From Spirosoma sp. (lineage in GTDB: Bacteria; Bacteroidota; Bacteroidia; Cytophagales; Spirosomataceae), in the NCBI RefSeq assembly GCF_026391055.1, contig NZ_JAPLET010000021.1:1-64000 (forward strand): a stretch of 64,000 nucleotides of DNA, given 5' to 3'. Numbering within the stretch: the first letter of the stretch is position 1; each line of letters begins with the position of its first letter. The position numbers and the translations under genes were made by a program. Positions 25,913 to 43,744 of this stretch are shown one piece after another. The notes under the pieces were generated by a model that was not told the origin of the DNA, did not search any database, and worked only from the letters and a program-made list of their open reading frames with translations.

Positions 25913-25954
25913 TCTATCCGTAACATATACTTTACCTGATCTGGTCTAATTTTC

Positions 25955-27358
25955 ATGAATAAATCGTACCTGCACGTCCTGTTAAGTGCGTTGCTACTGG
26001 CAACGGGCTGTCAACAAACAAAAACGGACCAAAGCGGAACAGTCATTTCCGATACGACAAAACAGTCCGCTCCCCCCTCTCCCGAGTGGGCTAAAAATGC
26101 GACGATTTATGAAGTGAATATTCGCCAGTTTTCGCCAGAAGGAAATTTCAAAGCCGTTGAAGAGCAACTGCCACGACTCAAAGAGTTGGGGGTCGATATT
26201 GTTTGGTTGATGCCGATTTATCCAATCAGCCAGAAAAATAAGAAGGGAACACTCGGTAGCCCTTATGCCATTGCGGATTACAAAAACGTTAACCCGGCCT
26301 ATGGTACACTTGCCGACTTCAAATCCCTCGTTAATCGGGCCCACGCCCTGGGTCTGCGAATCGTGCTGGATTGGGTAGCTAATCACACCGGCCGGGACCA
26401 CGTTTGGGTAAACGAGCACCCGGACTGGTACACCAAGGTGAACGGCAAAATGATAGCACCCATTGACCCTAAAACCGGAAAGCCTACCGACTGGACCGAT
26501 GTCGTTGATCTGAATTACAATAACCCCGATATGCGCAAAGGCATGATCGATGCCATGCAGTACTGGGTTAAAGAATGCGGCATTGACGGCTACCGCTGCG
26601 ATGTAGCGGGGTTTGTTCCGAATGATTTCTGGGCTGAACTACGGCCCCAGCTGGATAAAATAAAAACCGTATTCATGCTGGCCGAATGGGAAGATGAGCC
26701 AGACCACTTCAAGAGTTGTTTCAACATGAATTACGGCTGGAGTATGCATACCATGATGAAAGCTGTAGCAAAGGGGGCCCGCACCGCCGACAAAATCGAC
26801 TCCCTGCGCGAAGCCAACCAGAAACGGTTTCCCAAATGGTACTATCAGATGCTGTTCACGCAGAATCATGATGAGAACGCCAATAATGGCACCCTGGCAG
26901 AATCATTCGGTCCCGCAGCCGACGCCCTCGTTGTCCTGAGCAGCACGCTGGAAGGCATGCCGCTGATCTACAATGGTATGGAGGCTAACCTAAACAAACG
27001 GTTAGCGTTTTTCGAAAAAGATACCATTGTCTGGAATAATTACCCCAAGAGCGATTTTTACAAAACACTGCTCACACTGAAACACCGTAACCGGGCACTC
27101 TGGAACGGATTGGATGGCGGCAGAGCGGTTAAAATCCCGACTGATCACGATGATAAAGTATACGCTTTTTACCGGCAACGGGACAACGACCGCGTCACAG
27201 TTTTCCTGAACCTGAGCAATGAGCCCCAAACCGCTCGGCTAACAGGCGATGGGTATGCCGGTACCTATACCGATGTGTTCAGTCATCAGCCGGTTGAACT
27301 GAAACCTGAAATCACGATTACGCTAAAACCCTGGGAATACCGGGTCATGACAAACTAG
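25955..27358 (+). CDS. GH13 alpha-amylase family lipoprotein
   Basis: A 467-residue glycoside hydrolase exported as a lipoprotein (MNKSYLHVLLSALLLATGC, lipobox Cys at 19). The catalytic barrel shows conserved region I VLDWVANHT, region II with nucleophile Asp216 in DGYRCDVAGF, region III with acid/base Glu244 in MLAEWEDEP and region IV with Asp306 in FTQNHDENAN, so all three catalytic residues are present. A small C-terminal beta domain follows. The family hydrolyses or transfers alpha-1,4 or alpha-1,6 glucosyl bonds; exact specificity cannot be read from sequence. It would act at the periplasmic or outer-membrane face, supplying glucose units. Confidence 0.94.
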   Translation: MNKSYLHVLLSALLLATGCQQTKTDQSGTVISDTTKQSAPPSPEWAKNATIYEVNIRQFSPEGNFKAVEEQLPRLKELGVDIVWLMPIYPISQKNKKGTLGSPYAIADYKNVNPAYGTLADFKSLVNRAHALGLRIVLDWVANHTGRDHVWVNEHPDWYTKVNGKMIAPIDPKTGKPTDWTDVVDLNYNNPDMRKGMIDAMQYWVKECGIDGYRCDVAGFVPNDFWAELRPQLDKIKTVFMLAEWEDEPDHFKSCFNMNYGWSMHTMMKAVAKGARTADKIDSLREANQKRFPKWYYQMLFTQNHDENANNGTLAESFGPAADALVVLSSTLEGMPLIYNGMEANLNKRLAFFEKDTIVWNNYPKSDFYKTLLTLKHRNRALWNGLDGGRAVKIPTDHDDKVYAFYRQRDNDRVTVFLNLSNEPQTARLTGDGYAGTYTDVFSHQPVELKPEITITLKPWEYRVMTN

Positions 27359-27468: not shown

Positions 27469-29583
27469 ATGCTTACGCGACGTATCCTTTTCTTTAGTTG
27501 CCTTTTAATCAGTCCATTCAGTGGCCACACTCAGTCGACCGGGACCCGTTCGGCCGAGTCCCAAAAGCGACCAAACAATCTGGCAGACACTCAGCAGCAA
27601 TCCAATGGCAATGTGCAGTGGGCCAGTCGGGCAATTGGGGTGTCTTCCGAAAAGAAAGGAGAGCCCTACGGCGAACAGTATAAAGCATCTCAGGCCCTGG
27701 GTCGCCCCAGCAAATTACCGAATACGGGCGAAAGTCCCTGTGCCTGGGCACCCTTTTATGCCGATGGCACGGCCGATGAGTGGATACAGGTAGGCTTTGC
27801 TAAACCCATGCATGCCCGCCAGGTTGTTATTGCCGAGAATGTAAATCCGGGATCGGTGGTGCGTGTCCTGGCCATCGACTCTAAAGGGACCGAGCACCTG
27901 ATCTACGAAGCAACAACGATTCAGGCACGACCCGACCCGCTGCTTCGCCTGTTCCCGAAAGATACCGCCTTTCTGTGCACTCAGCTAAAAGTCTTTATCA
28001 ATGGCGCAGCCCTGAAAGGTATTAACCAGATCGATGCGATTGGTATTTCTGAAGATAGCAAACCCGTTTCGGTGAACTTGAGCATTTCGAAAGACATACC
28101 GAAAGAAATCAAGAAAGAGAACCTGGGCAAAACGGTGAATTCAGCCGGGCAAGAGGTGGCTCCCGTCATTTCGCCCGATGGCCGAACGCTTTATTTTACC
28201 CGCAATTTCAATAAAGCCAATATTGGTGCATCAGACCGGCAGGACGTCTGGTATTCGACCCTGGAGTCGGGTGTTGGCGGAAATCCATCCGGCTGGAGTG
28301 AAGCGGTAAATATCGGCTCTCCCATCAACAATACCGGCGACAACGCCATCAGCGGCATGGCTACCGACGGACGGACGGCCTACCTGATCAATGTGTACCG
28401 CCCTGATGGGGGTATGTCGTTTGGTATTTCCAAATCCATCCGGACCAAAACGGGCTGGTCGCAACCGGTCGAATGCCGCATTGCCAACAATTATAACCTT
28501 CACGAGAAAAATCAGCTCGAGTTCTGTGTCTCGCCCGATGGGCACGCCATTATTCTGGCCGTACAGCGAAAAGATACAAAGGGCGACCGCGACCTGTATA
28601 TCTCTTTTCAAAAGGCAGACAACAGCTGGCAGGAACCCGTTTCGTTGGGCAACGTCATCAATACCGCGGATTTTGAGAGTTCTCCCTTTCTGGCAGCCGA
28701 TAGCCGCACGTTATACTTTACGTCGGGGGGGCATCCCGGTTATGGCAATGGGGATATTTTCGTGTCGCGTCGGCTCGATGATTCCTGGAGTAACTGGAGT
28801 GAACCCGAAAACCTGGGGCCAGCAATCAATACAAACGAATGGGATGGATATTTTACCATTCCGGCGTCCGGCGATTATGCGTACCTAAGCTCCCGGTCGG
28901 GGTCGCTGGGTGAAGATGATATATTCCGGCTGAAGTTATACCCTGCCATTAAGCCTGACCCTGTTGCCATTATCTCCGGGTTAGTACTGGACTCAAAAAC
29001 GAAGAAGCCCATTGCCTCGGAGATCGTGTCGACCTTGTTTGGAGAACAGAAACCCCTGACCAAAGTTGACTTCAGCCCCGAAACCGGCGAGTTCAAACTT
29101 ATTCTGCCAACTCAAAAAACGTACGTGCTGACGGCCACTAAAGAAGGGTACTTCCCAACGATAGAAACCCTGGACCTGAGCAAAGACAAGCGTTTCCGCG
29201 ACATAAAAAAGAACCTTTACCTCGCTAAAATCGAGGCCGGTCAGACAATCACCATGCGCGAGGTCTTGTTCCAGCAGAGCCAGTTTACTCTTTTGCCCGG
29301 TGCCGATGCAGAGCTCGACAAGATGGTTGACATGATGGAAACGCATCCAACGATGGAATTGCTCATCGAAGGCCATACTGATAATCAGGGCGACTGGGAG
29401 CCAAATATGAAACTGGCCGAAGACCGCGTGCGGGTGGTAAAAGAGTACCTACTGAAGAAGGGGATCAAGCCCGACCGTATCCAGACCAAAGCTTGGGGAC
29501 CCAGCAAACCGATTGCCAGTAACGAAACCGAAGAGAAACGTAAACTTAACCGAAGAGTAGAATTCACCATCCTTAAATTGTAA
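27469..29583 (+). CDS. Discoidin-like/PD40/OmpA-family outer membrane protein
   Basis: A 704-residue exported protein with a signal peptide ending HTQ. Four modules are visible. A discoidin-like beta-sandwich covers about 60-195 (KASQALGRPSKL, ADEWIQVGFAKPMHARQVVI). PD40/WD40-like blades cover about 225-500 (SPDGRTLYFTRNF, SPDGHAIILAVQRKDTKGDRDLY, AADSRTLYFTSGGHPGYGNGDIF, YLSSRSGSLGEDDIF). A carboxypeptidase-regulatory-like domain covers about 505-590 (ISGLVLDSKTKKPIAS). A C-terminal OmpA peptidoglycan-binding domain carries LLIEGHTDNQGDWEPN and NRRVEF. The layout resembles PorE of the type IX secretion system but has no TPR region and adds the discoidin-like domain. Probably an outer-membrane anchored, peptidoglycan-tethered surface protein; function is unproven. 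Confidence 0.88.
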   Translation: MLTRRILFFSCLLISPFSGHTQSTGTRSAESQKRPNNLADTQQQSNGNVQWASRAIGVSSEKKGEPYGEQYKASQALGRPSKLPNTGESPCAWAPFYADGTADEWIQVGFAKPMHARQVVIAENVNPGSVVRVLAIDSKGTEHLIYEATTIQARPDPLLRLFPKDTAFLCTQLKVFINGAALKGINQIDAIGISEDSKPVSVNLSISKDIPKEIKKENLGKTVNSAGQEVAPVISPDGRTLYFTRNFNKANIGASDRQDVWYSTLESGVGGNPSGWSEAVNIGSPINNTGDNAISGMATDGRTAYLINVYRPDGGMSFGISKSIRTKTGWSQPVECRIANNYNLHEKNQLEFCVSPDGHAIILAVQRKDTKGDRDLYISFQKADNSWQEPVSLGNVINTADFESSPFLAADSRTLYFTSGGHPGYGNGDIFVSRRLDDSWSNWSEPENLGPAINTNEWDGYFTIPASGDYAYLSSRSGSLGEDDIFRLKLYPAIKPDPVAIISGLVLDSKTKKPIASEIVSTLFGEQKPLTKVDFSPETGEFKLILPTQKTYVLTATKEGYFPTIETLDLSKDKRFRDIKKNLYLAKIEAGQTITMREVLFQQSQFTLLPGADAELDKMVDMMETHPTMELLIEGHTDNQGDWEPNMKLAEDRVRVVKEYLLKKGIKPDRIQTKAWGPSKPIASNETEEKRKLNRRVEFTILKL

Positions 29584-29616: not shown

Positions 29617-31440
29617 ATGCCGAATTCTATCACTTCTGACCGCATGATTACCAATAACCGTTCCGGTTTGTTTGCCCAGTTGAGTTCTCCACGCCTGCTC
29701 ATTTTTTTGATTCTCCTGTTTGCTTTAGGCCTCCGGCTCTATAAATCCAGCGTTCATGGCCTGTATCTCGATGAAAAATTCACATTAATCAATACCTCAG
29801 GCATCTCTCTCGAAGGATATAACCAGCACGATGTGTTTTTTACACCGGGCAAGACCTATTTCACCCCCAAAGAATTCTGGAAAGAAAAGCCCCTAAAAGA
29901 TTATATCAGGGCCATCATCCAAACCGACATTGGGAATAGCCCCTCTCATTACGCGCTGCTTTGGGCCTGGATACAGGTTTTCGGACTTAGTGACCTTTCC
30001 ATCCGAATGCCGTCCATTTTGTTTAGTACGCTTATTGTAGGACTGGTCTTTTTGCTGGTTCGACGATACCTGCGTTCCGACTCACTGGCGCTGCTATGTG
30101 CCTTTCTGACTGCCATTGAACCTTTTTTCATTGCCTACAGCCACATGGCCCGCAATTATTGCATGACCATATTTATCAGTCTGCTGGGCACTTATCTCTT
30201 TCTACGGATTCTGGACCGACGGGCTGAAGGCAAGCAACCCGTTGGCCTCTACATTGGATACGGCTTATCTTTCGCGCTGGCTACGCTCGGCCATTACCTG
30301 GCCGTAACTATTTTTTTATGCCATGGGCTTTATCTGGTACTGTTCAATCGCGACCTGAAAACATACATTGGCCTGGGGCTTAGTACCATCGGAGGAGCCG
30401 TTAGCCTGATTATTCCCTGGTTCGTGTTTGGCGGGGGGAAGTACACCTTTCAAACCTTAGCGTATCAGGCCAAACTGTATGGCGGGCTAGCCCTGACGAA
30501 CCCGTACAATAATGGGTTTGGCATCATTCTGCCCGCTACGGTGGGCAATGTGGTGAAGAAATCAATTCCTGTTCTGGCCGATTTGTTTATGTTCTCCAAC
30601 GGTCTTTCAACAGATACACTCGCTTTCCGGAATCTGGTTATTGCCTTCGCATTGGGCTGTGTGGCGGTGGTGATCATCCACCGGTTTGGCCGGGGGCGCT
30701 CCGTACCTGTATGGGTTGGCATTCTGACACCACTGTTGCTGGTGGTCGGATTTGCCTTATATTCCGTACAATCGCCCCGGCTGATTGTGGCTGCCGCTGT
30801 TCCTCTATTTTATTACCTGCTGAGTCAGGCATTCATTGGGTACACAAATCGACCTGAGCGCCGGTTTCTGTTTCTGCTGGTGCTGATGAGCACAATACCC
30901 ACCCTGTTTTTGATTGCCATCGCCTTTCGGAACGGGCATACGTATGGTATTACTCAACGGTATTCCGGCTTTTCCTTCCCCTATGCGCTCATTCTGGTGG
31001 GCCTGACCGTTCGGCAGGTGTTCCGCCAGCCGACTTACCTTCGGCTGACACTGGCAGCAGTTCTGCTCTTGCAGGGTTATTACATAGCCGATTTGCTGTA
31101 CCGCATTTACGAGGATCAGGCGCCAAAATACACGTACTACGGCCACTACCGCATCGAAAACCCGTATGTCACAGCCGCTAACCGCATAAAGAGTATGTAT
31201 ACGCCGGGCGACACCGTTTTATATCCGTCTCCCCGAACAGCGCCACGCGACGAAGTAGAGAATACATATACAACGCATTCAATCATCGACGCACAGTACA
31301 CAAACCTGTATCTGCCCAAAGACGCTACGTATTACCAGCGTATGGATACCACCCAGACCGACCGTATCATTCTGGTAAAAGGGAAGACAAAACAACGCGT
31401 GACAATTTTCGATTTTGAAGGCACCAAATACCGGTACTAA
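29617..31440 (+). CDS. GT39-like (PMT/ArnT-type) membrane glycosyltransferase
   Basis: A 607-residue polytopic GT-C enzyme. The first periplasmic loop has the catalytic acidic pair in VHGLYLDEKFTL, preceded by LLFALGLRLYKSSVHG, the classical opening of ArnT/PMT_2 proteins. At least ten membrane spans follow (for example SLALLCAFLTAIEPFFIAYSH, PVWVGILTPLLLVVGFALY). The C-terminal soluble part is about 100 residues. Such enzymes transfer a sugar from a polyprenyl-phosphate donor on the outer face of the inner membrane. It opens a run of six plus-strand genes; the next begins 2 nt after its stop. Start ATG 29617 fits the promoter; ATG 29644 is also possible. Donor and acceptor are unknown. Confidence 0.85.
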   Translation: MPNSITSDRMITNNRSGLFAQLSSPRLLIFLILLFALGLRLYKSSVHGLYLDEKFTLINTSGISLEGYNQHDVFFTPGKTYFTPKEFWKEKPLKDYIRAIIQTDIGNSPSHYALLWAWIQVFGLSDLSIRMPSILFSTLIVGLVFLLVRRYLRSDSLALLCAFLTAIEPFFIAYSHMARNYCMTIFISLLGTYLFLRILDRRAEGKQPVGLYIGYGLSFALATLGHYLAVTIFLCHGLYLVLFNRDLKTYIGLGLSTIGGAVSLIIPWFVFGGGKYTFQTLAYQAKLYGGLALTNPYNNGFGIILPATVGNVVKKSIPVLADLFMFSNGLSTDTLAFRNLVIAFALGCVAVVIIHRFGRGRSVPVWVGILTPLLLVVGFALYSVQSPRLIVAAAVPLFYYLLSQAFIGYTNRPERRFLFLLVLMSTIPTLFLIAIAFRNGHTYGITQRYSGFSFPYALILVGLTVRQVFRQPTYLRLTLAAVLLLQGYYIADLLYRIYEDQAPKYTYYGHYRIENPYVTAANRIKSMYTPGDTVLYPSPRTAPRDEVENTYTTHSIIDAQYTNLYLPKDATYYQRMDTTQTDRIILVKGKTKQRVTIFDFEGTKYRY

Positions 31441-31442
31441 TA

Positions 31443-33236
31443 GTGATCACACAACAGCCCATAACGGATAAATCACGACAACCCGAATTGCCACAGCCAG
31501 TGCTGCGCTGGCTGCCGGGTATTTCGTGGGTATTGCTGGGGCTACCAATCCTGTTTTTTGCCTTCGTCTGGCAGTATTATGCCATAGCTATTCCTAAATG
31601 GGACGACCACGCCCTGCGGGCTTTTTTGTATTACTCCGATCAGGAATCGACCGTTTCGGGTAAAATCTACCAGCTTTTCCGGCAACATAACGAACACCGG
31701 ATTGTGTATGACCGGCTCATCACGAGACTCGATTACACGCTGTTTGGGAAGCTCAACTTTGTCCACCTCATGCTGGTTGGCAACCTGAGTCTGGTTGGTT
31801 TGCTACTGGTGTTCACCGCTGCACTGCGCCGGTCGATGCCTGGTTCACTAACCGCATTTTATGCCCTCCCGGTTGCCCTATTGCTTTTCAACCTTTCGCA
31901 GTGGGAGAATATGTATTGGGGGATGGCCGCTCTGCAAAACTTCTCCGTTGTGTTATGGGTACTGGCGGCTTTCTATTTTTTGAGTTACACCCCTTTATGG
32001 GGGCTGGCGCTGGTATCGGCAACACTGGCAACGCTAACCAGCGGTAATGGTCTCATGGTATGGCCAATCGGATTTGTTATTCTCGCACTGCGTTTACCGA
32101 CTTACGCGCCTACAACCAGTCGACAACTTTACCGACCTCTGCTCGGCTGGCTGACTGGGGCTGTACTCGTAATCGGCCTTTATTTCACCGGCTTCGAAAA
32201 ACCGGATGGCATTGCTTATGTAAAACCAGGGTTCACCGATCTGTTAAAAGGCTGGTTTGCCGTTTTGGGAGCAGCCGCCGAAGCCCTCCCGGCTCGCGCT
32301 CCGCTTCGTACATGCCTTTTGCTGGGCGCTATCCTGTTTGCGGCCATCGTTTGTGTGATCGTCCAGACGCTCTGGACCAACCGAGTTCTTATCGGTAAGT
32401 TATTCAACGCGCTGGCAACGCGTAACACAAACGCACTGAAAACGAAAAAAGTAATGGCTTCCGGTACACTCTTCTTCTGGAGTAGTGCCGCTTTCATTTT
32501 GGGAACAACGCTCGTTGTCGCCTGGGCTCGGACGGGCTTTGGGGTCGATTTACTCATTACGAGCCGGTACAAAATGTACTCTCTTACGGGTTTATCATTG
32601 ATGTATTTTTACATGGTGGCGAATCTGCCAGGGCGTCTGGCCCGGTGGTGGATGATGGGAAGTGTGCTTGGCAGTTGCGTATTTGCAGGTCTGACATATT
32701 ATGCGTTTCTGGACGAAACCATCTGGTGGCGGCATTGGCTGACAACCAATCAGTTCAACTGGACGTTTACAACCAACCGGCCCGTTATTTCCTCCGATTC
32801 TGTATCAAAGAAGTATACGCCCCCCTCTCCAGCCTTCTATGACGCGGCATTACCGGTGTTATTCGGCCCCGCCCAACAACCGGTTATCGACTTAAAACTG
32901 ACCCAAATCAACGGTGGCTTCTCGATTGAAAACGCAACCTTTCCTTTCCAGGGTTTGCGTGATGAAGGGGCTTATGTGGTCGCCCGGTCGGCAAAACGGA
33001 TGTATTTGTTTCCGGTCTGGCAAAACCAGCAGTCTGTTCTGACGGCACGATTCAAACCGGCCAGCGTATTCACGAATGGATTTAGAGCAACCCTTCTCGA
33101 TTTGGAGCTGGAAGCAGGCAGTTATCGACTGTTTGTGTTGAAGGTGACGAGTCCAACTACCTTTAGTTTGTATCCTACCAATCAGCAACTAATTTCAAAA
33201 GGCCCACCGGCTACCGTAAGTACCAAAAACTGGTAG
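31443..33236 (+). CDS. Uncharacterised polytopic membrane protein, possible GT-C transferase
   Basis: A 597-residue protein with about ten hydrophobic spans (ISWVLLGLPILFFAFVW, FVHLMLVGNLSLVGLLLVFT, SVVLWVLAAFYFLS, others) and a C-terminal soluble region of roughly 160 residues that looks beta-rich. The first loop carries IPKWDDHALRAF, and QHNEHRIVYDRLITRLDY follows. The acidic pair in the first external loop recalls GT-C glycosyltransferases, but I cannot assign it to a named family. It begins with GTG at 31443, only 2 nt after the GT39-like stop, so the two are certainly co-transcribed and likely coupled. No ATG start is available near the N-terminus. Confidence 0.75.
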   Translation: MITQQPITDKSRQPELPQPVLRWLPGISWVLLGLPILFFAFVWQYYAIAIPKWDDHALRAFLYYSDQESTVSGKIYQLFRQHNEHRIVYDRLITRLDYTLFGKLNFVHLMLVGNLSLVGLLLVFTAALRRSMPGSLTAFYALPVALLLFNLSQWENMYWGMAALQNFSVVLWVLAAFYFLSYTPLWGLALVSATLATLTSGNGLMVWPIGFVILALRLPTYAPTTSRQLYRPLLGWLTGAVLVIGLYFTGFEKPDGIAYVKPGFTDLLKGWFAVLGAAAEALPARAPLRTCLLLGAILFAAIVCVIVQTLWTNRVLIGKLFNALATRNTNALKTKKVMASGTLFFWSSAAFILGTTLVVAWARTGFGVDLLITSRYKMYSLTGLSLMYFYMVANLPGRLARWWMMGSVLGSCVFAGLTYYAFLDETIWWRHWLTTNQFNWTFTTNRPVISSDSVSKKYTPPSPAFYDAALPVLFGPAQQPVIDLKLTQINGGFSIENATFPFQGLRDEGAYVVARSAKRMYLFPVWQNQQSVLTARFKPASVFTNGFRATLLDLELEAGSYRLFVLKVTSPTTFSLYPTNQQLISKGPPATVSTKNW

Positions 33237-33286
33237 CTTCCAGAGTGGTTCGTTCGAGTTGATTTTTGGTTTAATTCAACACACAC

Positions 33287-34477
33287 TTGATTCATCAGCA
33301 GCACCCTTCGTCCAATTTGTCTAACCAATCGTCTATACCAGCCTCTGTCCCTGCCCGTTCAACGCTGAATCACCTTCGGCAGCTGGACGGCATCCGGTTC
33401 ATTGCGGTTGGCATGGTTCTGTTCGACCACTGGATGGTTGGCCGGGCCGATGGGCTGGCATTGGGGGCATTGGGCGTTACGATCTTTTTTGTACTAAGCG
33501 GTTTTCTGATAACCCGTATCCTGCTGTCGAGTAAAGACAAGCTAAGCAACCAGCCAAACGGAGGGTTGGGCAAGTACCTCAAGACGTTTTATATACGCCG
33601 TACCCTGCGTATTTTCCCAATTTATTACCTGACGCTTTTTGTTCTATACCTGATCAACGAACCACCCGTCCGCCGAACTTTTGGGTGGCTGGCTCTTTAT
33701 GCATCCAACATATACATAGCCCGTTATGCTACCTGGATGGGCACCGTCGATCACTTGTGGTCACTGGCCGTTGAGGAGCAGGTGTATCTTATTTTCCCTT
33801 TACTCCTCTTTATCATGCCGCGCCGGTGGGTTCCGCTCACCTCCGTGCTTATGATCATTGGCAGCGTTGGGTTGCGGTATATTCTGTTTCATAAGCAGTT
33901 GCCCTGGTTTATCGGGTACGTGTCCATGCCCACATGCCTGGATGCGTTTGGTCTGGGTATGCTGATGGCCTTTACCTGGCTGTATCGACGTGAGTGGTTT
34001 ACCCGCTTGTTTCAATCGTCGACCTGGGTTGTTGTCAGCCTGCTGGCGTTTCTGGGGGCGGTATGGCTCACAAACTGGCTGGCCCAGACACCATCAATTG
34101 GGTATCATAACGAGGTGGCCGATGTGTGGGAACGGCTGATCGGCTCCCTGTTTGGCTTTTTTCTCATTGGCCGGGCAGTTGTTGGATTCAGGGGGCCAAT
34201 GAAATGGGTGCTCGAAAATCCGGTCAGTCAATACATGGGCCGCATCAGTTACGGACTATACCTTTTTCATAATTTCGTCTTTAACTTTTTTCACACGCAA
34301 CCAACTCATTTTACGGTTCGAGCCTGGAAACGCCTTTCCGAAATGATGCCTTTCCTGACAAGTTCCTATTTTTTCCAATTTTCATTTTATCTTGCATTAA
34401 CTGTCGCATTGGCAACAATTTCCTGGTTTTTGATTGAAAAACCGATTAATAATCTGAAAGATCGCTTTTCGTATTAA
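33287..34477 (+). CDS. Acyltransferase_3 (OafA/YrhL-type) membrane O-acyltransferase
   Basis: A 396-residue polytopic protein of the acyltransferase family 3. The signature LRQLDGIRFIAVGMVLFDHW contains the His proposed to take part in acyl transfer. Further typical stretches are GVTIFFVLSGFLITRILL, RRTLRIFPIYYLTLF, HLWSLAVEEQVYLIFPLLLF and SQYMGRISYGLYLFHNFVF. These proteins move acyl groups, usually acetyl, across the inner membrane onto glycans. The start is uncertain: no ATG precedes the conserved region, and TTG at 33287 or 33317 must be used. It follows the polytopic gene by 50 nt and probably modifies the same glycan. Confidence 0.9.
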   Translation: MIHQQHPSSNLSNQSSIPASVPARSTLNHLRQLDGIRFIAVGMVLFDHWMVGRADGLALGALGVTIFFVLSGFLITRILLSSKDKLSNQPNGGLGKYLKTFYIRRTLRIFPIYYLTLFVLYLINEPPVRRTFGWLALYASNIYIARYATWMGTVDHLWSLAVEEQVYLIFPLLLFIMPRRWVPLTSVLMIIGSVGLRYILFHKQLPWFIGYVSMPTCLDAFGLGMLMAFTWLYRREWFTRLFQSSTWVVVSLLAFLGAVWLTNWLAQTPSIGYHNEVADVWERLIGSLFGFFLIGRAVVGFRGPMKWVLENPVSQYMGRISYGLYLFHNFVFNFFHTQPTHFTVRAWKRLSEMMPFLTSSYFFQFSFYLALTVALATISWFLIEKPINNLKDRFSY

Positions 34478-34572
34478 TCCCTTAACTCCTTGTACCCTAC
34501 TCCCGGAATGATTGTCAATCAGCCACTCGCTAAGGTCAGGTTAGTTTACACATTTCACCGATAACAATTTCC

Positions 34573-34580
34573 TATATTTG
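34573..34580 (+). promoter_or_regulatory. Candidate -7 promoter element for the GT2 gene
   Basis: TATATTTG matches TAnnTTTG in the 234-nt gap between the acyltransferase and GT2 genes. It would produce a leader of roughly 125 nt before the GT2 ATG. The -33 region is weak. Confidence 0.4.
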
Positions 34581-34664
34581 CGAATCCTCTTAATCAAAAA
34601 CATAGTTACCACTATTATCGTCTCTGAATATCGGCTGCATCGAATACTATCCCACTCAATCAAG

Positions 34665-34715
34665 ATGCCGATTTCAATGTCTGTTAATGAGTTTTCACTA
34701 ATTAGCCAAGTATGA
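34665..34715 (+). promoter_or_regulatory. Possible 16-codon leader ORF coupled to the GT2 gene
   Basis: An ATG at 34665 opens 16 codons (MPISMSVNEFSLISQV) ending at TGA 34713-34715, which overlaps the GT2 ATG (34712-34714) as ATGA. This arrangement permits termination-reinitiation coupling. It may be a chance ORF; no conservation information is available here. Confidence 0.25.
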
Positions 34716-35473
34716 GTCTCCTGCTGTCAATTGTAATGCCGGCTTACAACGAAGAAGAAGTGATCGAAACTGTTGTTAAGCAGTGGACTGATTTGTTGAC
34801 CCGCCAGTTTCCTACCGAAAATACGCGTCTGATAGTTGTTAATGATGGCTCCCGCGATAAAACGGGCGCTATACTGGATCAAATTAAAGACCTCTACCCA
34901 AAACTGCTGGTTGTGCATCAACCAAACGGTGGGCATGGTAACGCCGTTGTGAACGGGTATCGGCAGGCGGTAGCCCTTGACTCAGAGTATATATTTCAAA
35001 CGGATAGCGACGACCAGTTCATTGCCGACGATTTTGAAAAGCTTTGGGAGAAGCGCAGCAAATCGCCGTTTATTCTGGGCTACCGGGAAGAGCGTTATGA
35101 CGCCCCGGCCCGCCTACTCATCACCCGCATTCTACGCTGGAGCATTGCCTTTATTTATGGCACATACATTATGGACAGTAATATTCCGTTCCGGCTCATC
35201 CGGGGCACATTCCTGCGGAAGTTACTGGCTCAATTGCCCGATCCAACTCCGTTTGCACCTAATATATTTTTGGCCGTCATGGCAAAAAAGGCCGGATACA
35301 ATACTTTCGATATTCCAATTACCCACAAAGAGCGGGTTACAGGTACGGTTTCAATCCTGAAATGGAAGCTACTGAAAGTATGTATTCAAAGCTTTAAAGA
35401 ACTGGCTCAATTCCGTTTTGAATTAGGCGGTAAAGTGAAAGCTCTGAAGAAACCGGAACCGGTAATAGCCTAA
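34712..35473 (+). CDS. Glycosyltransferase family 2
   Basis: A 253-residue GT-A enzyme resembling dolichol-phosphate mannose synthase but without C-terminal membrane spans. Motifs: LSIVMPAYNEEEVIETVV (nucleotide-binding start), VVNDGSRDKTGAIL, PNGGHGNAVVNGYRQA and the DxD-like metal site in QTDSDDQF (about 97-104). A later DSNIPFRLIRGTFLR segment is characteristic of this subgroup. It likely transfers a sugar from a nucleotide donor to a polyprenyl phosphate on the cytoplasmic face, which would supply the GT39-like enzyme encoded upstream; this link is inference. It is separated from the next gene by a hairpin. Confidence 0.92.
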   Translation: MSLLLSIVMPAYNEEEVIETVVKQWTDLLTRQFPTENTRLIVVNDGSRDKTGAILDQIKDLYPKLLVVHQPNGGHGNAVVNGYRQAVALDSEYIFQTDSDDQFIADDFEKLWEKRSKSPFILGYREERYDAPARLLITRILRWSIAFIYGTYIMDSNIPFRLIRGTFLRKLLAQLPDPTPFAPNIFLAVMAKKAGYNTFDIPITHKERVTGTVSILKWKLLKVCIQSFKELAQFRFELGGKVKALKKPEPVIA

Positions 35474-35511
35474 AAATGTAGGGTATACGTCAGTAAGTGG
35501 TCCGTTAATAC

Positions 35512-35562
35512 ATGATAAGTGGCTGACGCGAAAGCAATACTCGTGCATCAGCCACTTATCAT
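35512..35562. repeat. 15-bp perfect inverted repeat between GT2 and the 905-residue gene
   Basis: Arms 35512-35526 and 35548-35562 are perfect complements (ATGATAAGTGGCTGA). The loop begins with the rest of GCTGACGC (35522-35529), an octamer shared with the hairpins at 5723-5808 and 59205-59278. It lacks a T-run, so a simple intrinsic terminator is less likely. Confidence 0.65.
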
Positions 35563-35590
35563 ATATTGACGCACCGATTCACTATCAATT

Positions 35591-38308
35591 ATGAAACGAA
35601 GTCTCTGGATTGCTCTTGGTGCAGTGGGGCTGCTGATTGGTGGCTGGCTGGGTTACCGACAGTTTTTTCCAGCGAGTCGTACGGTTGGATCGCTGGTGCC
35701 GCCGGGAGCGTTGCTGGTGCTGGCAAGTGATCGTCTTCAGGATACCGTATCAGCGCGCACGCTGCGTACCCAGATGTCGCTTCGGCAGGTACCATTTTTT
35801 GATGAGGCTCGCCAGAAACTCGACCGGTTCCTGTACGCAACGGCCGATACAGCGACCGTTCTGAAATTTGTGTCGGGCCGGAATATCCGATACTCCCTCC
35901 ACTCGATTTCAAAAACGACGCTCGACTTTATTTTCTATATTCCTATCAGTTCGGCTGATCAGGATTTTCTAAATCGGGTAACCAACCCTGACCCACGCCG
36001 GTACCGTGTCTTGAACCACACATTTGCCGGTGAAAAAATCCTTGACCTGGTCGCCAGAGGAAATGAACCGGTTGGCTCATTCATTTTGACCGATAACTTT
36101 TTAGTAGGCAGTGTATCGGGCATTCTGATTGAGAATGTTGCCAAACGAATGCATCAGCCCCTGAGGTTTGTATCTGACGAACCCGATTTTCGTTTGGACG
36201 ACGATCATCTGGCGGGTTTGTCAGTTCGACCGGAAGTACTCCAATCGCTTTTCAGCAATGCGGCCTCACTAGTAAAACTTTTTCTGCCGGAAGAGTTGAA
36301 CCTTCAATTTCGGCAATCGGCTTCCCGCTCGCATTTAATTGGGTATGCCGTCGACCAAATTGGAAATCGACGGGATGTGGCGGCTTTATTTGCCGGTCAG
36401 GCTCCCCGTCGTATTCAGCATGCCTATCTGATTCCTCAATCGACATCGACACTATACCACATTGGCATCAGTGATGCAGGGCAGTTTGGTCAGTCTCTCA
36501 GCAAGCTGCTAAGTTCGGCATCCGGTGACTTCCTCCGCGAGCGGTTCCGGCAGATACAAGTCGACACAAAACCGTTGTATGAGTCGCTGGGCAGCGATAT
36601 TTTGCTGTGTCGACTCGAATCCAGGACGGGGGCTCCACGGCAGGTTTTGGTACTGACGGCCCAAAATGGTAAACAACTTGCCAACATGTACCAGCAGGTT
36701 GCGTACCGATCAGGAGCTAAGGCTGCGTCGTTACCAAAAAGTTACCTCGGCCATAAGATACTGCTCCTCAAAGTCTCTGAGCTGCCGGCATCCCTTTTCA
36801 GCAGTCTATTTTCGGGGTTTCCGCAAAGCTGGATCACCCAGCATGGTTCGTCGCTGGTTATTGCCAACAGTGAGGATGCCATGCTGGATTACTTACAGCA
36901 GATTCAGCGCGGTGCCGTCTGGTCGACCGACGCACGCCAGGCCGAGTTATTGAATGAAACCCTTCGACCGGCCAATTTTACGGCCTTTGCCCGACTAAAT
37001 CGAGGACAAATGAGCGTTCTCAACACCTGGCCACTGGGTTGGCAAAACTTACTCGACAAAGTTGACCCTGCCACCGGAACATCGGCTTTGGCTAATCTGG
37101 AAAATATGGCTTATCAGGCTAGCTATGGCAACGAGAATATCCAATCGACTGTAATATTGGGCCGTACCACCCGCCGGGCTAGCCGGGCCGTACTTAATAA
37201 ACTTCTGCTTCAAAAGAAAACCGAATTTAATGCTCCCCTCGTTTCGGCCCCGATCGTAACGGGCTCGCTGAGCGACAGTTCTGCCCAGTTTTACGCCCAG
37301 AATAATGCTGGGCAGTTTGTACTGGTAACTCCGGAAGGCGACAAACTGGTGCAGAATAACATTGACGGTCCCATTCGCAGCAATGCCCTTGGCGTTGATT
37401 TCCTGAACAACGGGCGACTACAGTACCTGTTCATGACCGACCGAACCCTGTACATTGCCGATCCGGTTCGTATCCGAAAAGAGGTTGCCCTTCAATCCAT
37501 TCCTCTCCCGGCGGGCATCGACGCATCCTTTCTGGCTCGCCCTCGGGGAAGTCAACAGCGCAACCTGGTTGCACTGGCTGCGCATCAGGATGGCCATATT
37601 TATGCCCTCGACCGACAGCGCCGAACGTTTATCCGGCTTTTAACGGCCTCGCACAAGGGAGCTTTGCAGTTGCCTTTTCAGGTTATGACTACCCCAACGG
37701 GTATGGATATTCTGGCGATCCAGGCCGACGGTACCCTGAACCACTGGCGCGAAAACGGCACCCAGTATCCGCATTTCCCAACCCATGTAGAACGAACCAA
37801 TGAAGAAGAGCCAGAAATACGTTTCATAGGTCCCGCTTTGTTACCTCCCGACCAAACCCAGATCCGAACCATTACCGATGAAGGGCAGCTCCTTACGCTG
37901 ACCAGAAACGGCCTGATTGCCAAACGTATTCAGTTATACCGCCCGGTACGGAATGGTAAATTCCGGCTGTTTCCCGATGAGGATCAGACGAACTGGTTGC
38001 TGCTACGAACGACCGATACAGAAATAGCGGTATTGGACCAGCAGGGTAAACGCCGGTTCGACGTACGGGCCTTACAATCGGGGCGCAACAATGTTCGTTA
38101 CCATCGACTCGGATCAGGAATTGAGTTGATTAGTGTTAAATCGGGCGGCTTCACCATGCTCTACGACCTCAATGGCCGTATTCTGAACGACCGCCCTATT
38201 CCAAGTGATTTCCCGGTTGCCGTTCAGTTCGACGACCGAACAAATGAGCTATATATTTTAAGTGGAGCCCAGCAGGCTGTACAGTTATTCAGCATTCGAC
38301 TTCGGTAA
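35591..38308 (+). CDS. Uncharacterised 905-residue membrane-anchored protein with C-terminal propeller-like region
   Basis: The N-terminus MKRSLWIALGAVGLLIGGWLGYRQFF is a signal anchor. Residues about 30-560 resemble DUF3352-type proteins: VPPGALLVLASDRLQDT, then paired alpha/beta segments including LGHKILLLKVSELPASLFSSLFSGF. From about 580 on, short beta repeats (AQFYAQNNAGQFVLVTPEGDKL, IYALDRQRRTFIRLL, EIAVLDQQGKRRFDVRAL, TMLYDLNGRILNDRPIP) suggest a seven- or eight-bladed propeller. There are no catalytic motifs I recognise. It faces the periplasm and is followed 36 nt later by the AlgX/AlgJ-like gene, so it may be an accessory or scaffold for glycan modification; this is inference from context. 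Confidence 0.8.
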   Translation: MKRSLWIALGAVGLLIGGWLGYRQFFPASRTVGSLVPPGALLVLASDRLQDTVSARTLRTQMSLRQVPFFDEARQKLDRFLYATADTATVLKFVSGRNIRYSLHSISKTTLDFIFYIPISSADQDFLNRVTNPDPRRYRVLNHTFAGEKILDLVARGNEPVGSFILTDNFLVGSVSGILIENVAKRMHQPLRFVSDEPDFRLDDDHLAGLSVRPEVLQSLFSNAASLVKLFLPEELNLQFRQSASRSHLIGYAVDQIGNRRDVAALFAGQAPRRIQHAYLIPQSTSTLYHIGISDAGQFGQSLSKLLSSASGDFLRERFRQIQVDTKPLYESLGSDILLCRLESRTGAPRQVLVLTAQNGKQLANMYQQVAYRSGAKAASLPKSYLGHKILLLKVSELPASLFSSLFSGFPQSWITQHGSSLVIANSEDAMLDYLQQIQRGAVWSTDARQAELLNETLRPANFTAFARLNRGQMSVLNTWPLGWQNLLDKVDPATGTSALANLENMAYQASYGNENIQSTVILGRTTRRASRAVLNKLLLQKKTEFNAPLVSAPIVTGSLSDSSAQFYAQNNAGQFVLVTPEGDKLVQNNIDGPIRSNALGVDFLNNGRLQYLFMTDRTLYIADPVRIRKEVALQSIPLPAGIDASFLARPRGSQQRNLVALAAHQDGHIYALDRQRRTFIRLLTASHKGALQLPFQVMTTPTGMDILAIQADGTLNHWRENGTQYPHFPTHVERTNEEEPEIRFIGPALLPPDQTQIRTITDEGQLLTLTRNGLIAKRIQLYRPVRNGKFRLFPDEDQTNWLLLRTTDTEIAVLDQQGKRRFDVRALQSGRNNVRYHRLGSGIELISVKSGGFTMLYDLNGRILNDRPIPSDFPVAVQFDDRTNELYILSGAQQAVQLFSIRLR

Positions 38309-38344
38309 GGGATTGCCTGTCCTCTGCCCAACGCCCTGTGATCT

Positions 38345-39346
38345 ATGCGTTTTCTTCGGTATATAATTATTCTTTTTGCGCTCCTCCTGTGGAGTGGAGG
38401 CCTGTCGAGCACAGTTTCTCACTGGCTTTATCAGGTTGGTATCATTGCCGACGACTATCGGTTTGGCGATCTATATCGCCTTTCCGCGCTGCCTCAATTT
38501 AAAGAACCAAAGCCTGTTTGCTCACCGTCAAACCGGTCGACCGACACGGCATCCACGCACCTATATTTGATTGGGGATAGCTTTTCGGAACCCGAACGGC
38601 TCAGTCAGGACGATTTCCGGGTTAGCCGTTATCAGCGGGTGCCCTGGGACTTCCGGCAACGGGCCCAACTCGATCCGACCAAACGGAATGTCTTATTAAT
38701 TGAATCCATCGAACGGCACGTTCGGGAGCATTTCGCCGGAGACGTACAGGAGCTTGTCGTTGAGAAAGATACCGCTCAACATCCCAGCCTGCGCCCGTCT
38801 TTCTGGCAACGTTTAAGCAACGAATTTCACCGGAGCGACATGGAGGAACGGCTCGAATCGACCCTGTTCAGCCGCGATTGGGCCTTTTGGTTTAAAGAAC
38901 TAAAAGCCAGCCTGACGCTAAATTGGTTCGACCGGGCAAGTAGCAGCGTGAGCCTGTCTGAAGACAGAAAACATGTATTTCTACGCAGTGACACCGATAC
39001 CGGCAAACCATTAAATTCATCGTTTTCGAGCCTGACCGATGCTGAGGTAAACACGCTTGTCGACAGTATAAATTCGGTCGCCAGTCGATACAAACAGCTT
39101 GGTTTCGATGCGGTTTATTTGTCGATCATCCCCAACAAAGCCAGTATTCTGGAGCCTGAGCGAGCGGCTTATAATCACCTCATCGAACGAATTCAGGCAA
39201 ATCCAGCTTTACAGGTGCCGTTTATTGATACCTACGAAGCGTATAAAAATAGTCCTGTACCGCCTTATCTGAAAAGTGATACGCACTGGAGTTGTGAAGG
39301 CCGCGCCCTCTGGCTTGACCTTGTGCGGCAGAAAGCGCAGATTTAA
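38345..39346 (+). CDS. AlgX/AlgJ-like SGNH-hydrolase-fold protein
   Basis: A 333-residue protein with an N-terminal membrane anchor or signal (FLRYIIILFALLLWSGGLSS). Two motifs place it near the SGNH-like acetyltransferase-associated proteins: LIGDSFSEPERL (block I GDS, serine at about residue 79) and SDTHWSCEGRALWLDLV (DxxH-type block V). In AlgX, AlgJ and related proteins these residues transfer or remove acetyl groups on an exported polysaccharide. The central part is helical and does not resemble a known family to me. It is the last gene of the run and is followed by a strong terminator. Pairing with the acyltransferase_3 gene suggests a two-step O-acetylation route, as in other bacterial glycans. 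Confidence 0.7.
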   Translation: MRFLRYIIILFALLLWSGGLSSTVSHWLYQVGIIADDYRFGDLYRLSALPQFKEPKPVCSPSNRSTDTASTHLYLIGDSFSEPERLSQDDFRVSRYQRVPWDFRQRAQLDPTKRNVLLIESIERHVREHFAGDVQELVVEKDTAQHPSLRPSFWQRLSNEFHRSDMEERLESTLFSRDWAFWFKELKASLTLNWFDRASSSVSLSEDRKHVFLRSDTDTGKPLNSSFSSLTDAEVNTLVDSINSVASRYKQLGFDAVYLSIIPNKASILEPERAAYNHLIERIQANPALQVPFIDTYEAYKNSPVPPYLKSDTHWSCEGRALWLDLVRQKAQI

Positions 39347-39434: not shown

Positions 39435-39471
39435 AGCCAAACACCGTTTCTCAAAGAAACGGCGTTTGGCT
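39435..39471. terminator. Bidirectional terminator between the AlgX-like gene and the metal RND gene
   Basis: The 17-nt arms 39435-39451 and 39455-39471 pair with a single mismatch around a 3-nt loop, between convergent genes ending at 39346 and 39492. Confidence 0.8.
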
Positions 39472-39491: not shown

Positions 39492-42400
39492 TTACACTTC
39501 ACTGTAGGCTAGCCGCTTACTCGATTTGGGTGTTTGAGACCGATAAAATAATCGGTAAATGATGGGGAAGATAAGCAGGGTTAACACCGTTGCGGTTATC
39601 AATCCGCCGATGACAACAATAGCCAGTGGCTTTTGTGTTTCGGAGCCAATTCCGGTGGAGATGGCGGCCGGAAAAAGACCGATAGCTGCCATCAGGGCGG
39701 TCATGACTACTGGACGGATTCGCGATTGAACCCCCGTTCGAATGGCCTCATCGAGCGGCATTCGTTCTTTTCGATTATTGTTAAATACCGACACCAGGAT
39801 TACGCCATTCTGGATACAGATGCCGAACAGGGCAATGAAGCCAACCCCCGCCGAAATTCCGAAATTCATACCCGTGGCATGCAGGGCCAGAATGCCGCCA
39901 ATGAGCGCAAAGGGCACATTCAACAGAACTAATCCAGCATCTTTGGCATTTCCAAAGGTGATGAACAGGATTACAAAAATAGCCGCCAGACTAACCGGTA
40001 CAACCTGTCCGAGCCGCCCTGTAGCCCGGACCTGGTTCTCAAACTCCCCTACCCAATCTACTGAATAGCTTTTCTCCGGACGAAGTTTTTCCTGTACCCG
40101 CTGTTGCGCTTCGGCAATGGTACTGCCCAAATCGCGCCCACGCACGGAAAACTTCACACCAATAAACCGTTTGTTGAGATCACGGTAGATGAACGCTGGA
40201 CCCGTAATTTGTTTGATGGTCGCAATTTCTTTCAACGGTATTTTGCCACCACTCATCGTGGGTACCATTAGTTGCATGATGTCCTCTTCGCTTTTTCGAT
40301 ACTCGGGTTGAAAGCGCACCCGAATGTCAAACTTCCGTTCTCCTTCGTACAAAATAGAAGCGGTTTTACCCCCGATAGCCATTTCGATTACCGCCTGGGC
40401 ATCGGCCGTCGATACGCCGTAAAGCGCCATCTTATGATCGTGGAACATCACACTCATTTCGGGCTGTCCCACGTTGCGAATAATTCCCAGGTCTTTGATC
40501 CCTTCCACGTTCCGGATGGCTTCCATAGCCTGGTTGGCGTACTTCTCCAGCTCGTACACATCCGGACCAAAAATCTTGATCCCGTTACTCGCTTTATAAC
40601 CCGCTACAGCCTCGGCCACATTGTCGATAATCGGTTGCGAGTAATTGTAGAGCACACCGGCATAATTTTTCAATTTGGCGTCCATCTCGTCGGTAAGCTG
40701 CTCGTCGGTTAATCGGCGTCCGAGCCGTCGTTCGGGCCACTCCCCTTTCTGTTTTAGATCGACCTGAAACTGGCAGAAATAAAAGCCGTTAGGGTCCGTA
40801 CCGTCGTTGGAACGGCCCACCTGCGAAAGCACCTGTTTCACCTCGGGAAAGGTATTCAGGTCTTCCCGAATGGTTTTGGCCATATCCACACTTTCGGGCA
40901 GCGACATACTCATGGGTAATTCTGCCGTTACCCAGAGCGCTCCCTCGTTGAGCTGGGGCAGAAACTCGGTACCCAGCATACTGGACGAAAAAAAAGTAGC
41001 AATCATAAAGCTGATGGCGCCAACCAGACTCAGCCGACGGTTGCGATAGCACCAGCCAAAACCGGCCATAACAATACGGTCGAAGAAGTTGACAATGGGG
41101 TTCTTTTTTTCCCGAACGTTTTTCTTCAGCAGCATCGAGCACAGTACCGGCACCAGCGTCAGGGTAAACAATAGCGCACCCAGCAGCGCAAAGCCGAGCG
41201 TCCACGCCAGGGGCGAAAACATTTTTCCCTCCACTTTCTCGAAGGAGAAAATAGGCAGTAAGGCCGTTATGATAATCAGTTTCGAGAAGAAGACCGCTTT
41301 ACCCAACTCTCCGCCCGTTTTTCGAATCAGACCCAGCTTAGCCATGCGGTTATACCGGTTCATACCCACCCGGTGCGCCAGGTGGTCGAGCGTGACGAAT
41401 ATCCCCTCGACCATGACGACGGCGCCGTCAATGATAATTCCGAAATCAACCGCCCCCATAGACAGCAGGTTGGCCGACATGCCCCGCAGCCGTAAACACA
41501 TGAATGCAAACAGGAGGGCTAACGGAATAATGATGGATACGATCAGGGTCGTGCGCCAATCGGCCATGAACAGGAAAACAATAACCGTTACGAGGACAAT
41601 ACCCTCTGTAAGGTTATGCAGCACCGTTTGGGTACAAAACTCAATGAGGTTATCGCGGTCATAGAACGTCACCATCTTTACATCAGACGGCAGTACACGC
41701 GTGTTCAATTCCTCTATTTTGTCTTTTACCCGAGTCAGTACCTCACTGGGGTTTTCGCCTTTCCGCATCACGATGATGCCTTCAACTACATCGTCGTTCG
41801 TATCCAAACCCACCTGCCCCACACGGGGCAGATTCGATTCGGCCACTTCGGCCACATTCTTTACCAGCACCGGGTTACCACCGGCTTCTTCGATCAAAAT
41901 GTTCTCAATGTCCTGAATGGACGTCAGGAGTCCAACACCCCGGACAACATACGCCTGCCCATTCCGCTCGATGACATCGCCCCCCACATTGATATTACTT
42001 CGGGTGACGGCCTGATAGACATCCAGTGGAGTAATGTCGTATTTGGCAAGTTGAGTGGGGTTGACGCGCAGTTCGTACATTTTCTCGCGTCCGCCAAAGG
42101 CAACGATATCCGCAACACCCGGTACACTGCGCATCTGCCGGTCAACGACCCAGTTTTGCAGGGTAAGCAGATCGCGGCTGTCGCGGTCTTTGCTTTCCAG
42201 CGTGTACCGGAAAATTTCGCCCGTTGGCCCGTAGGGCGGCTGTACCTCCGGCTCTACCCCTTCCGGCAGGGATACATTGCGCAGTAGATTGTTGACCTGC
42301 TGACGGGCGAAAAAGTCCTCGACATCATCATCGAAAATAATCTTCATCACCGATAACCCAAACATGGTCGTTGACCGGACATTACTCTTTCGCTGCACCG

Positions 42401-42632: not shown

Positions 42633-42635
42633 GAA

Positions 42636-43715: not shown

Positions 43716-43744
43716 TTGTTTACGCGCCAGACAAATGGCTTTTT

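Follow-up and report, generated by a model that had tools for sequence, protein, structure and literature searches.

A Spirosoma locus read as the reduced form of a Spirosomataceae-wide envelope-glycan cluster, with a GT2 glycosyltransferase predicted to use UDP-galactofuranose

We analysed a stretch of 64,000 nucleotides (the window) from the 7.98 Mb genome of Spirosoma sp. (NCBI RefSeq assembly GCF_026391055.1, contig NZ_JAPLET010000021.1, positions 1 to 64,000), and in it a locus of six genes together with the gene that precedes them. Comparison with relatives indicates that this locus is the reduced Spirosoma form of an envelope-glycan cluster found throughout the Spirosomataceae, and our best-supported new statement about it is that its 253-residue glycosyltransferase of family GT2 belongs with UDP-galactofuranose. 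A sequence-only reading of the window had proposed that six genes in one orientation make an O-acylated glycan of the envelope by a route that includes a sugar on polyprenyl phosphate. That is still the best reading, and our scan does find six long co-oriented open reading frames (ORFs) at 29596/29617 to 39346 on the plus strand. The earlier observation was mostly right and its frame too small: the six genes are real and conserved, but an OmpA/PD40 gene joins them upstream, and relatives add a transketolase/SDR-GT2 cassette, a gene for UDP-galactopyranose mutase (UGM) and an MBOAT gene. The genes of the locus are listed below by position in the window, with lengths in amino acids (aa).

27469 to 29583, plus strand: OmpA/PD40 outer-membrane protein, 704 aa, which opens the conserved locus (PF00691, E=1.3e-19; PF07676, E=3.4e-15)
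29617 to 31440, ORF open from GTG at 29596, plus strand: GT39-like GT-C glycosyltransferase, 607-614 aa (PF13231, PF02366)
31443 to 33236, plus strand: GT-C-fold protein, 597 aa, a probable glycosyltransferase as judged from its model, of a family outside Pfam
33287 to 34477, plus strand: stand-alone acyltransferase-3 (AT3), 396 aa (PF01757, E=5.6e-26)
34712 to 35473, plus strand: GT2, 253 aa, ArnC-related, predicted UDP-galactofuranose-dependent transferase (PF00535, E=2.9e-22)
35591 to 38308, plus strand: N-terminally anchored protein, 905 aa, whose relatives match DUF3352 and beta-propeller models
38345 to 39346, plus strand: anchored SGNH-fold protein, 333 aa, a probable O-acyltransferase from its modelled fold (GDSF at 77-80, DxHW at 312-315)

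The family scores bear out the sequence-only assignments of the AT3 and GT2 genes. To follow the locus through relatives, we used 79 genomes, 36 of the genus (the window's own included), 13 of the family and 30 of other families of the order, and drew gene maps from 40 fetched genome stretches and 80 named loci, the latter being the best matches of a longer listing and not a random sample. At E 0.001, matches among the 79 genomes number 67 for the 905-aa protein, 47 for the SGNH protein, 50 for GT39, 51 for the GT-C protein and 79 for GT2; a clear GT2 orthologue (E below 1e-70) occurs only in the family, in 47 of its 49 genomes. The full order is OmpA - GT39 - transketolase N half - SDR/GT2 fusion - transketolase C half - GT-C - AT3 - GT2 - UGM - 905 - (MBOAT) - SGNH, and many of the relatives with a long enough fetched stretch have the OmpA/PD40 gene at its head. 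Conservation of gene order across the Spirosomataceae, which the sequence-only reading had named as the check on its proposal, is indeed found. The series AT3-GT2-(UGM)-905-(MBOAT)-SGNH is collinear and in one orientation in 53 of the 80 named loci. Upstream, 39 of the 80 have GT39, the two transketolase halves, SDR-GT2 and GT-C, and in every one of the 36 genus genomes searched, the window's own included, the SGNH gene lies next to the 905-aa gene. The remaining 27 named loci comprise contig ends, 11 loci with AT3-GT2-(UGM) only, and GT2 relatives outside the family. The window's locus has neither the transketolase/SDR-GT2 cassette nor a UGM gene, and it is on this account that we regard it as a reduced form. 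The contrary outcome that the sequence-only reading had named, genes occurring apart, is seen in a minority of genomes: in G015, OmpA-GT39-GTC-AT3 lies about 1.1 Mb away from GT2-UGM-905-SGNH, and the distance from GT-C to GT2, 1.5 kb in the window, is 10.7 kb in G001, 13.8 kb in G020 and 13.6 kb in G030. Two records deserve a remark of their own. Several locus genes of G016 (905-aa, UGM, GT2, GT-C) are broken, possibly through assembly errors, and L115, titled Flavobacterium sp. SUN052, holds a cluster of Spirosomataceae type with a GT2 85% identical, so that it is probably a misnamed record, or otherwise a case of transfer.

Two dissimilar classes of UGM occupy the slot directly after GT2. 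The first class, a flavoprotein, has 4dsg as its best PDB match (E=2.4e-141); we take this structure and the PDB UGM matches that follow it to be eukaryotic enzymes. The second, bacterial class fills the same slot in six loci (L088, L129, L131, L135, L156 and L180), and its L129 copy matches PF03275 at 7.1e-82 and, best in the PDB, 1i8t (E=6.5e-168), presumably the E. coli UGM. By BLASTP the classes are unlike each other (best E=0.009 over 38 residues). Of the 80 named loci, 25 carry the first class in the slot and 5 the second; 50 have neither class there. At the level of whole genomes, the first class is present in 37 of the 47 GT2-bearing members of the family; 9 of the 10 without it hold the second class, in the slot (G044) or elsewhere, and a UGM of either class is thus encoded in 46 of the 47. 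The second class also occurs in 9 of the 37 genomes that hold the first, which gives a Fisher p of 2.8e-4 (9/10 vs 9/37), or 0.0053 in the genus alone (5/5 vs 9/31), both uncorrected for kinship. The first class undergoes five state changes on a tree of 905-aa proteins, and among five independent pairs for the second class 3.5 go in the expected direction, none in the opposite one, and 1.5 show no difference. This tree was built by a quick method with no bootstrap, carries long-branch warnings for G043, G041, G036, G044, G039 and G042, and covers 42 of the 47 GT2-bearing genomes, those left out being G002, G003, G020 and G022 (no fetched 905-aa protein) and G046 (none found). First-class UGM was searched at E 1e-60 in 48 genomes and 1e-40 in 18; G016 was scored as having the first class, found in two pieces, and as lacking the second, of which it has a fragment below the cut-off, and the second class of G038, in two frames, was scored as present. 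The two frames of that G038 gene (C2:3803398-3804476) may reflect an assembly error. In the window's genome no UGM gene was found within the locus, and the enzyme is encoded on another contig (G000:C31:47069-48145; TIGR00031, E=7.1e-123, above the cut-off). G012 and G024, near relatives of the window's clade, hold both classes, as a gain of the second prior to loss of the first would predict. Scans of the neighbours of second-class UGM in G011 (4 proteins) and G013 (5 proteins) returned no glycosyltransferase.

GT2 relatives elsewhere also keep company with UGM. Outside the family, G097 has a 511-aa membrane protein with no Pfam family, a bacterial-class UGM, GtrA (PF04138, E=8.4e-20) and GT2 in one run, with genes overlapping or 6 bp apart. 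The same spacing is seen in L188 (GT87-UGM-GT2) and L199 (membrane protein-UGM-GtrA-GT2); GtrA stands between UGM and the GT2 relative in L198/L199, and in G050, which belongs to another family of the order, an Alg6/Alg8-like gene adjoins a GT87-UGM-GT2 run. L158 and L175, not named Spirosomataceae, carry GT2-UGM pairs of the first class. The compact membrane protein-UGM-GtrA-GT2 and GT87-UGM-GT2 runs at L199:476-4275 and L201:9316-12409, in other families of the phylum, apparently represent minimal galactofuranosylation sets. Taken together, the UGM slot, the replacement of one UGM class by the other across whole genomes, and the UGM operons of GT2 relatives lead us to conclude that GT2 most likely uses UDP-galactofuranose.

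The three best PDB matches of the GT2 profile are ArnC sequences, from 2.2e-13, and DPMS follows at 6.9e-9. The motif DSDDQF is kept in 102 of 104 family members. GT2 relatives adjoin DUF2298 in L183 and L184 and a MatE protein in L169; the L183 and L184 loci are from Clostridia, and there the DUF2298 membrane protein lies directly after the GT2 relative (L183:9950-13083, L184:9968-12968). The ArnC-best profile, together with the UGM, GtrA, GT87, DUF2298 and MatE contexts, favours, without proving, a polyprenyl-phosphate transferase.

Both candidate extracytoplasmic glycosyltransferases of the locus are of the GT-C kind. The GT39-like call of the sequence-only reading holds, with PF13231 at E=1.5e-13 (51.7 bits, above the cut-off of 26.1) and PF02366 at 5.7e-7 (29.8 bits against 22.7); the first loop reads LDEK, and its DE is kept in 51 of 56 relatives. 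In a tree of 56 GT39 rows, which leaves out proteins of 450 aa or shorter and includes some second copies away from the locus, 40 rows occur with SDR-GT2, meaning inside the same fetched stretch, and 16 do not; the trait changes 2 times, against 14.1 in shuffles. The window's GT39 falls in the lineage not found with the cassette, and G029 has one GT39 of each lineage. Since GT39 lineage tracks the cassette on this tree, the partner of GT39 is probably the SDR-GT2 cassette wherever the latter is present. At L075:3421-7346 and in many of L105-L177, split N and C halves of a transketolase flank an SDR-GT2 fusion of about 660 aa, whose SDR part is dTDP-glucose-4,6-dehydratase-like and whose GT2 part is of PgfS/ArnC type; the closest model to the fusion is PgfS (E=1.7e-70), with 237.7 bits where the cut-off is 500.

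For the 597-aa protein encoded at 31443-33236, no Pfam family was matched, and a profile against PDB sequences returned nothing useful. It has conserved WDDH and QHNEHRI motifs and a C-terminal beta domain. Its AlphaFold model (mean pLDDT 90.9) supports the possible GT-C of the sequence-only reading: in VIA-align, each of the 36 top rows (Z 17.9 to 8.2) is a GT-C glycosyltransferase or a complex with one, three rows excepted, with the Pmt2 complex at 17.9, ArnT at 15.6, AftA at 14.2, AftB at 13.7, and so on down to AftD at 8.2. The three exceptions are GPI transamidase chain U, which we take to have a GT-C-like fold, and in two translocon rows the matched chain was taken to be the catalytic subunit of oligosaccharyltransferase (OST). 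Row 37, an unrelated beta domain, follows at Z 7.2. Foldseek alone gave nothing significant (best E 0.022), and because of these weak E-values the GT-C call is a statement of fold and not of family. On the basis of the model, the protein is a probable glycosyltransferase of GT-C fold.

The acylation genes keep the motifs of their families. R-X10-H and RXXR are present in all 90 AT3 family members of at least 350 aa, the window's included, and GDSF and DxHW in all 77 SGNH family members, with S79, D312 and H314 invariant in 54 aligned sequences. The SGNH model (pLDDT 89.9) matches SGNH hydrolases in VIA-align with a best Z of 10.7, PatB with 9.0 and the OatA catalytic domain with 8.9; Foldseek alone found nothing significant (best E 0.08), and the fold reading rests on VIA-align. 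AlgX, AlgJ and DltD are not among the best 50 VIA-align rows, which proves nothing. Against PDB sequences, the single sequence gave nothing useful and the profile three unrelated matches from E 0.29. The earlier description of this protein as AlgX/AlgJ-like thus stands as far as the SGNH fold of the model goes but not as a family assignment, PF16822 matching at E=0.001 and 19.3 bits, below its curated cut-off of 26.5; weak matches to PF16822 occur in 17 of 22 family members, the best at 3.6e-6. We consider a role as O-acyltransferase probable from the modelled fold.

In the window, the AT3 and SGNH domains are in separate genes and not in one polypeptide. They do not form an obligate pair, because there are AT3-only loci (11 of the 80), SGNH-MBOAT loci (L081, L085, L092, L128, L129, L131 and L156), and second SGNH copies that adjoin MBOAT in four of the five genomes covered by both searches (G008, G009, G011 and G029, not G005). 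G046, of the AT3-GT2-(UGM) type, has an SGNH relative, 31% identical, elsewhere. MBOAT genes follow the 905-aa gene or precede the SGNH gene in L081 (3656-5080), L085, L089, L092, L128, L129, L131, L135, L156 and L157; the L081 copy matches PF03062 at 1.1e-26, its nearest NCBIfam model being DltB at 154 bits, below the cut-off of 375. The Spirosoma and Dyadobacter loci that were mapped show none, and the four MBOAT matches of the window's genome all lie outside the locus. Stand-alone AT3 proteins that act on galactofuranose are known, WciG/WcjE acetylating it in pneumococcal capsules (PMC9558356).

The 905-aa protein of the window matched no family, DUF3352 (PF11832) included at E 0.1; 8 of 31 members of its own family match DUF3352, the best at 1.5e-17, and a few match beta-propeller models. 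It is found, by matches that are in some cases weak or partial, in 21 of the 30 genomes of other families of the order, where the SGNH protein is found in none, and outside the family its homologues adjoin unrelated genes. It is probably a general envelope protein that has been tied into the locus in the Spirosomataceae. At L095:1638-7715 and L093:4793-9252, in other families, a homologue sits beside a PPIC isomerase and an M28 peptidase, or beside a PRPP synthase and a small protein that we take to be L25-like. The OmpA/PD40 protein is related to NCBIfam CHU_0125 but scores 214.9 bits against it, far below the cut-off of 620.

The sequence-only reading had the six genes end at one shared terminator. 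Three signals bear on transcription:

34573 to 34580, plus strand: TATATTTG, possible own promoter of GT2, resembling the Bacteroidota -7 element
35500 to 35575, plus strand: long hairpin, probable terminator or attenuator (-38.2 kcal/mol, z -9.8)
39435 to 39471, plus strand: terminator-like hairpin between convergent genes (-24.2 kcal/mol, z -6.9)

A hairpin does follow the last gene, but the one after GT2, in the gap before the 905-aa gene where relatives have UGM, is stronger. Because of this hairpin and the 234-bp gap upstream of GT2, the six genes probably do not form a single transcription unit, and an operon spanning the whole locus was set aside as unlikely. The candidate promoter is weak, since such motifs number 4 in 13 kb where 3.2 are expected, and a scan for consensus promoters, with 20 hits where 15.5 are expected, was uninformative. 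Between the end of the OmpA/PD40 gene and the GT39 ATG at 29617 lie 33 bp. Convergent with the locus, on the minus strand at 39492-45013 of the window, is a putative efflux set of RND type, with proteins of 1046, 359 and 422 aa that look CusA/CusB/CusC-like. Upstream of the OmpA gene, at 25241-27358, are a ribulose-phosphate 3-epimerase and an alpha-amylase, and the epimerase cluster is also upstream in several relatives (L064, L066, L131).

As the best explanation of the whole, we propose that the locus serves an envelope glycan that contains galactofuranose (Galf), is O-acylated outside the cytoplasm, and is built by way of lipid-linked Galf, a scheme that we judge about as apt to be right as wrong. 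UGM, encoded directly after GT2 in many relatives and on another contig in the window's genome, would make UDP-Galf; GT2 would load Galf onto polyprenyl phosphate; and the lipid-linked Galf would be flipped by a protein not encoded at the locus. A GT-C enzyme, most likely the 31443-33236 protein, would transfer Galf to a periplasmic acceptor, and GT39 would add a further sugar from a lipid donor of its own. AT3 would move acyl groups through the membrane and onto the glycan, the SGNH protein may act as a second acyl carrier or transferase, and the 905-aa and OmpA/PD40 proteins would be parts of the envelope. Conservation, families, folds, and the UGM linkage and replacement were computed; the reactions, the lipid-linked Galf donor, the choice of GT-C, the acceptor and the acyl group are what we infer from them. 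More tentatively still, and with somewhat more doubt than belief, we suggest that GT2 founds a family of polyprenyl-phosphate Galf synthases and the 31443-33236 protein a family of extracytoplasmic galactofuranosyltransferases that use its lipid donor, with UDP-Galf coming from either of the two slot-swapped UGM classes.

Several observations weigh against this proposal. To our knowledge, no member of any of these families has been characterized biochemically. GT2 has no C-terminal membrane helices, which ArnC and GtrB carry, and its profile also matches GT2 enzymes that use no lipid carrier, some of them above DPMS. The seven window proteins scanned include no UGM, GtrA or MATE-like protein. 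The 50 named loci that lack UGM after GT2 include all of Dyadobacter, Larkinella and Runella, no UGM was found in the GT2-bearing G047 (an 82% complete assembly), and in G328, a distant GT2 relative, no UGM directly adjoins GT2, a UGM-like amine oxidase lying about 4 kb away. The kinship-corrected pair test gave a median p of 0.125, in a design unable to reach 0.05. Second-class UGM may serve other glycans, being found in clusters with Wzz/export genes in G045 and G041, and the copy in the window's genome has a GT2 3.7 kb upstream and a GH1-like ORF 2.4 kb upstream. A reading of this last UGM as an orphan therefore did not hold fully, which leaves the odds for Galf unchanged because the in-slot UGM evidence is independent of it. 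Finally, AT3 and SGNH do not always co-occur, and the 11 AT3-GT2-(UGM) loci (Aquirufa and similar) have neither 905 nor SGNH in the 10 kb downstream.

These last loci fit a reading as co-travelling modules (OmpA-AT3-GT2-UGM, GT39 with transketolase/SDR-GT2, and 905-(MBOAT)-SGNH) that serve one or more envelope targets and are not one pathway. The split locus of G015, an MBOAT-SGNH pair alone in the fetched 12 kb of G048, the second SGNH copies beside MBOAT, and the wide occurrence of the 905-aa protein in other families, where SGNH is absent, point the same way, but a fixed downstream order in 53 of the 80 loci and a full upstream set in 39 exceed what loose neighbours would show, and we see modules as a distinct if lesser possibility. 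In bacteria, the enzymes that add Galf usually work in the cytoplasm, with UDP-Galf as donor. GT2 could do the same, adding Galf straight from UDP-Galf to a lipid-borne cytoplasmic glycan, with no lipid-phosphate Galf and with both GT-C proteins adding other sugars. Such a route is described for lactococci (PMC10821137), the UGM linkage fits it equally, and so do the missing helices and the other GT2 kinds matched by the profile; we hold it unlikely given that the best solved relatives of GT2 are ArnC and that its relatives sit with GtrA, GT87 or DUF2298 membrane proteins.

The sequence-only reading itself had GT2 feed GT39 its lipid-linked sugar and made AT3 and SGNH one two-step O-acetyltransferase. 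Both gene pairs are present in the window, the SGNH fold resembles those of the OatA catalytic domain and PatB, and AT3-SGNH fusion enzymes work in this way (PMC7448272). Both partnerships are nevertheless weakened and probably wrong, and the model improbable: GT39 lineage tracks the SDR-GT2 cassette, while the window's GT2 tracks UGM and occurs with either GT39 lineage and also in L086, whose locus has no GT39; AT3 and SGNH are found apart, the latter beside MBOAT in several lineages. What we think very improbable is that the locus makes part of the general protein O-glycan of Bacteroidota, with the GT-C protein as an undiscovered OST or ligase. The model does resemble PMT and OST enzymes, and a 2025 review gives the O-transferase, ligase and core flippase as undiscovered and acetyl groups as common (PMC12871550). 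However, of 395 genomes sampled from the phylum, only 6, four Spirosomataceae among them, match the GT2 profile at 1e-30, with six candidates scored per genome and with GT-C and SGNH not searched in that sample; the locus therefore looks far narrower than a phylum-wide system.

The proposed Galf route can be set beside several known systems. With GtrA-GtrB-GT-C and ArnC-ArnT it shares an ArnC-related GT2 and a GT-C of ArnT/PMT-like fold, and it differs in a GT2 that has no C-terminal helices, in the predicted Galf and in a GT-C outside Pfam families. The SDR-GT2 fusion of relatives is nearest PgfS of the Streptococcus Pgf protein glycosylation system, but transketolase halves flank it, and the gene is absent from the window's locus. 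AlgX/AlgJ, PatB and DltD are partners of MBOAT proteins, and AlgX and AlgJ have their catalytic Asp/His before Ser. The window's SGNH protein is likewise anchored, and MBOAT adjoins it in several relatives, but it stays below the PF16822 cut-off, has no MBOAT in its locus, and has the catalytic Ser before Asp/His, unlike AlgX and AlgJ. The AlgX-AlgI pairing appears in PMC9558356. With OafA/OafB/OatA (PMC7448272, PMC9558356), the locus shares R-X10-H and RXXR in AT3 and GDSF and DxHW in SGNH; it differs in having two separate genes that are not always together, and an MBOAT beside SGNH in other lineages. With the three-component extracytoplasmic pentofuranosylation of Citrobacter youngae O1/O2 (polyprenyl-P-ribose synthase, MATE flippase, GT136 GT-C; PMC11127046) the route would share a lipid-linked furanose donor, here a predicted one, a periplasmic GT-C and an auxiliary enzyme that sets the sugar. 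Here, the predicted donor would be made by GT2 from UDP-Galf, the sugar would be a hexofuranose, and AT3/SGNH acylation is attached. The earlier statement that the locus has no flippase holds among the seven window proteins scanned, the remainder of the genome not having been searched for one. In open-licence PMC papers, our literature search found no description of lipid-linked Galf, no paper combining polyprenyl, galactofuranose, GT-C and UDP-galactopyranose mutase, none on Spirosoma with galactofuranose, and none on DUF3352.

That one UGM class has taken the place of another in a single slot makes a clean case of gene context naming a sugar. If our proposal is true, a lipid-linked Galf donor used by an extracytoplasmic GT-C would add a new branch to surface glycosylation, as a hexofuranose variant of three-component glycosylation (PMC11127046) and not a separate kind of system. 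It would also name a candidate substrate for a GT2 and a GT-C that previously had no assigned sugar, in a locus conserved through a family of environmental (soil, water) Bacteroidota.

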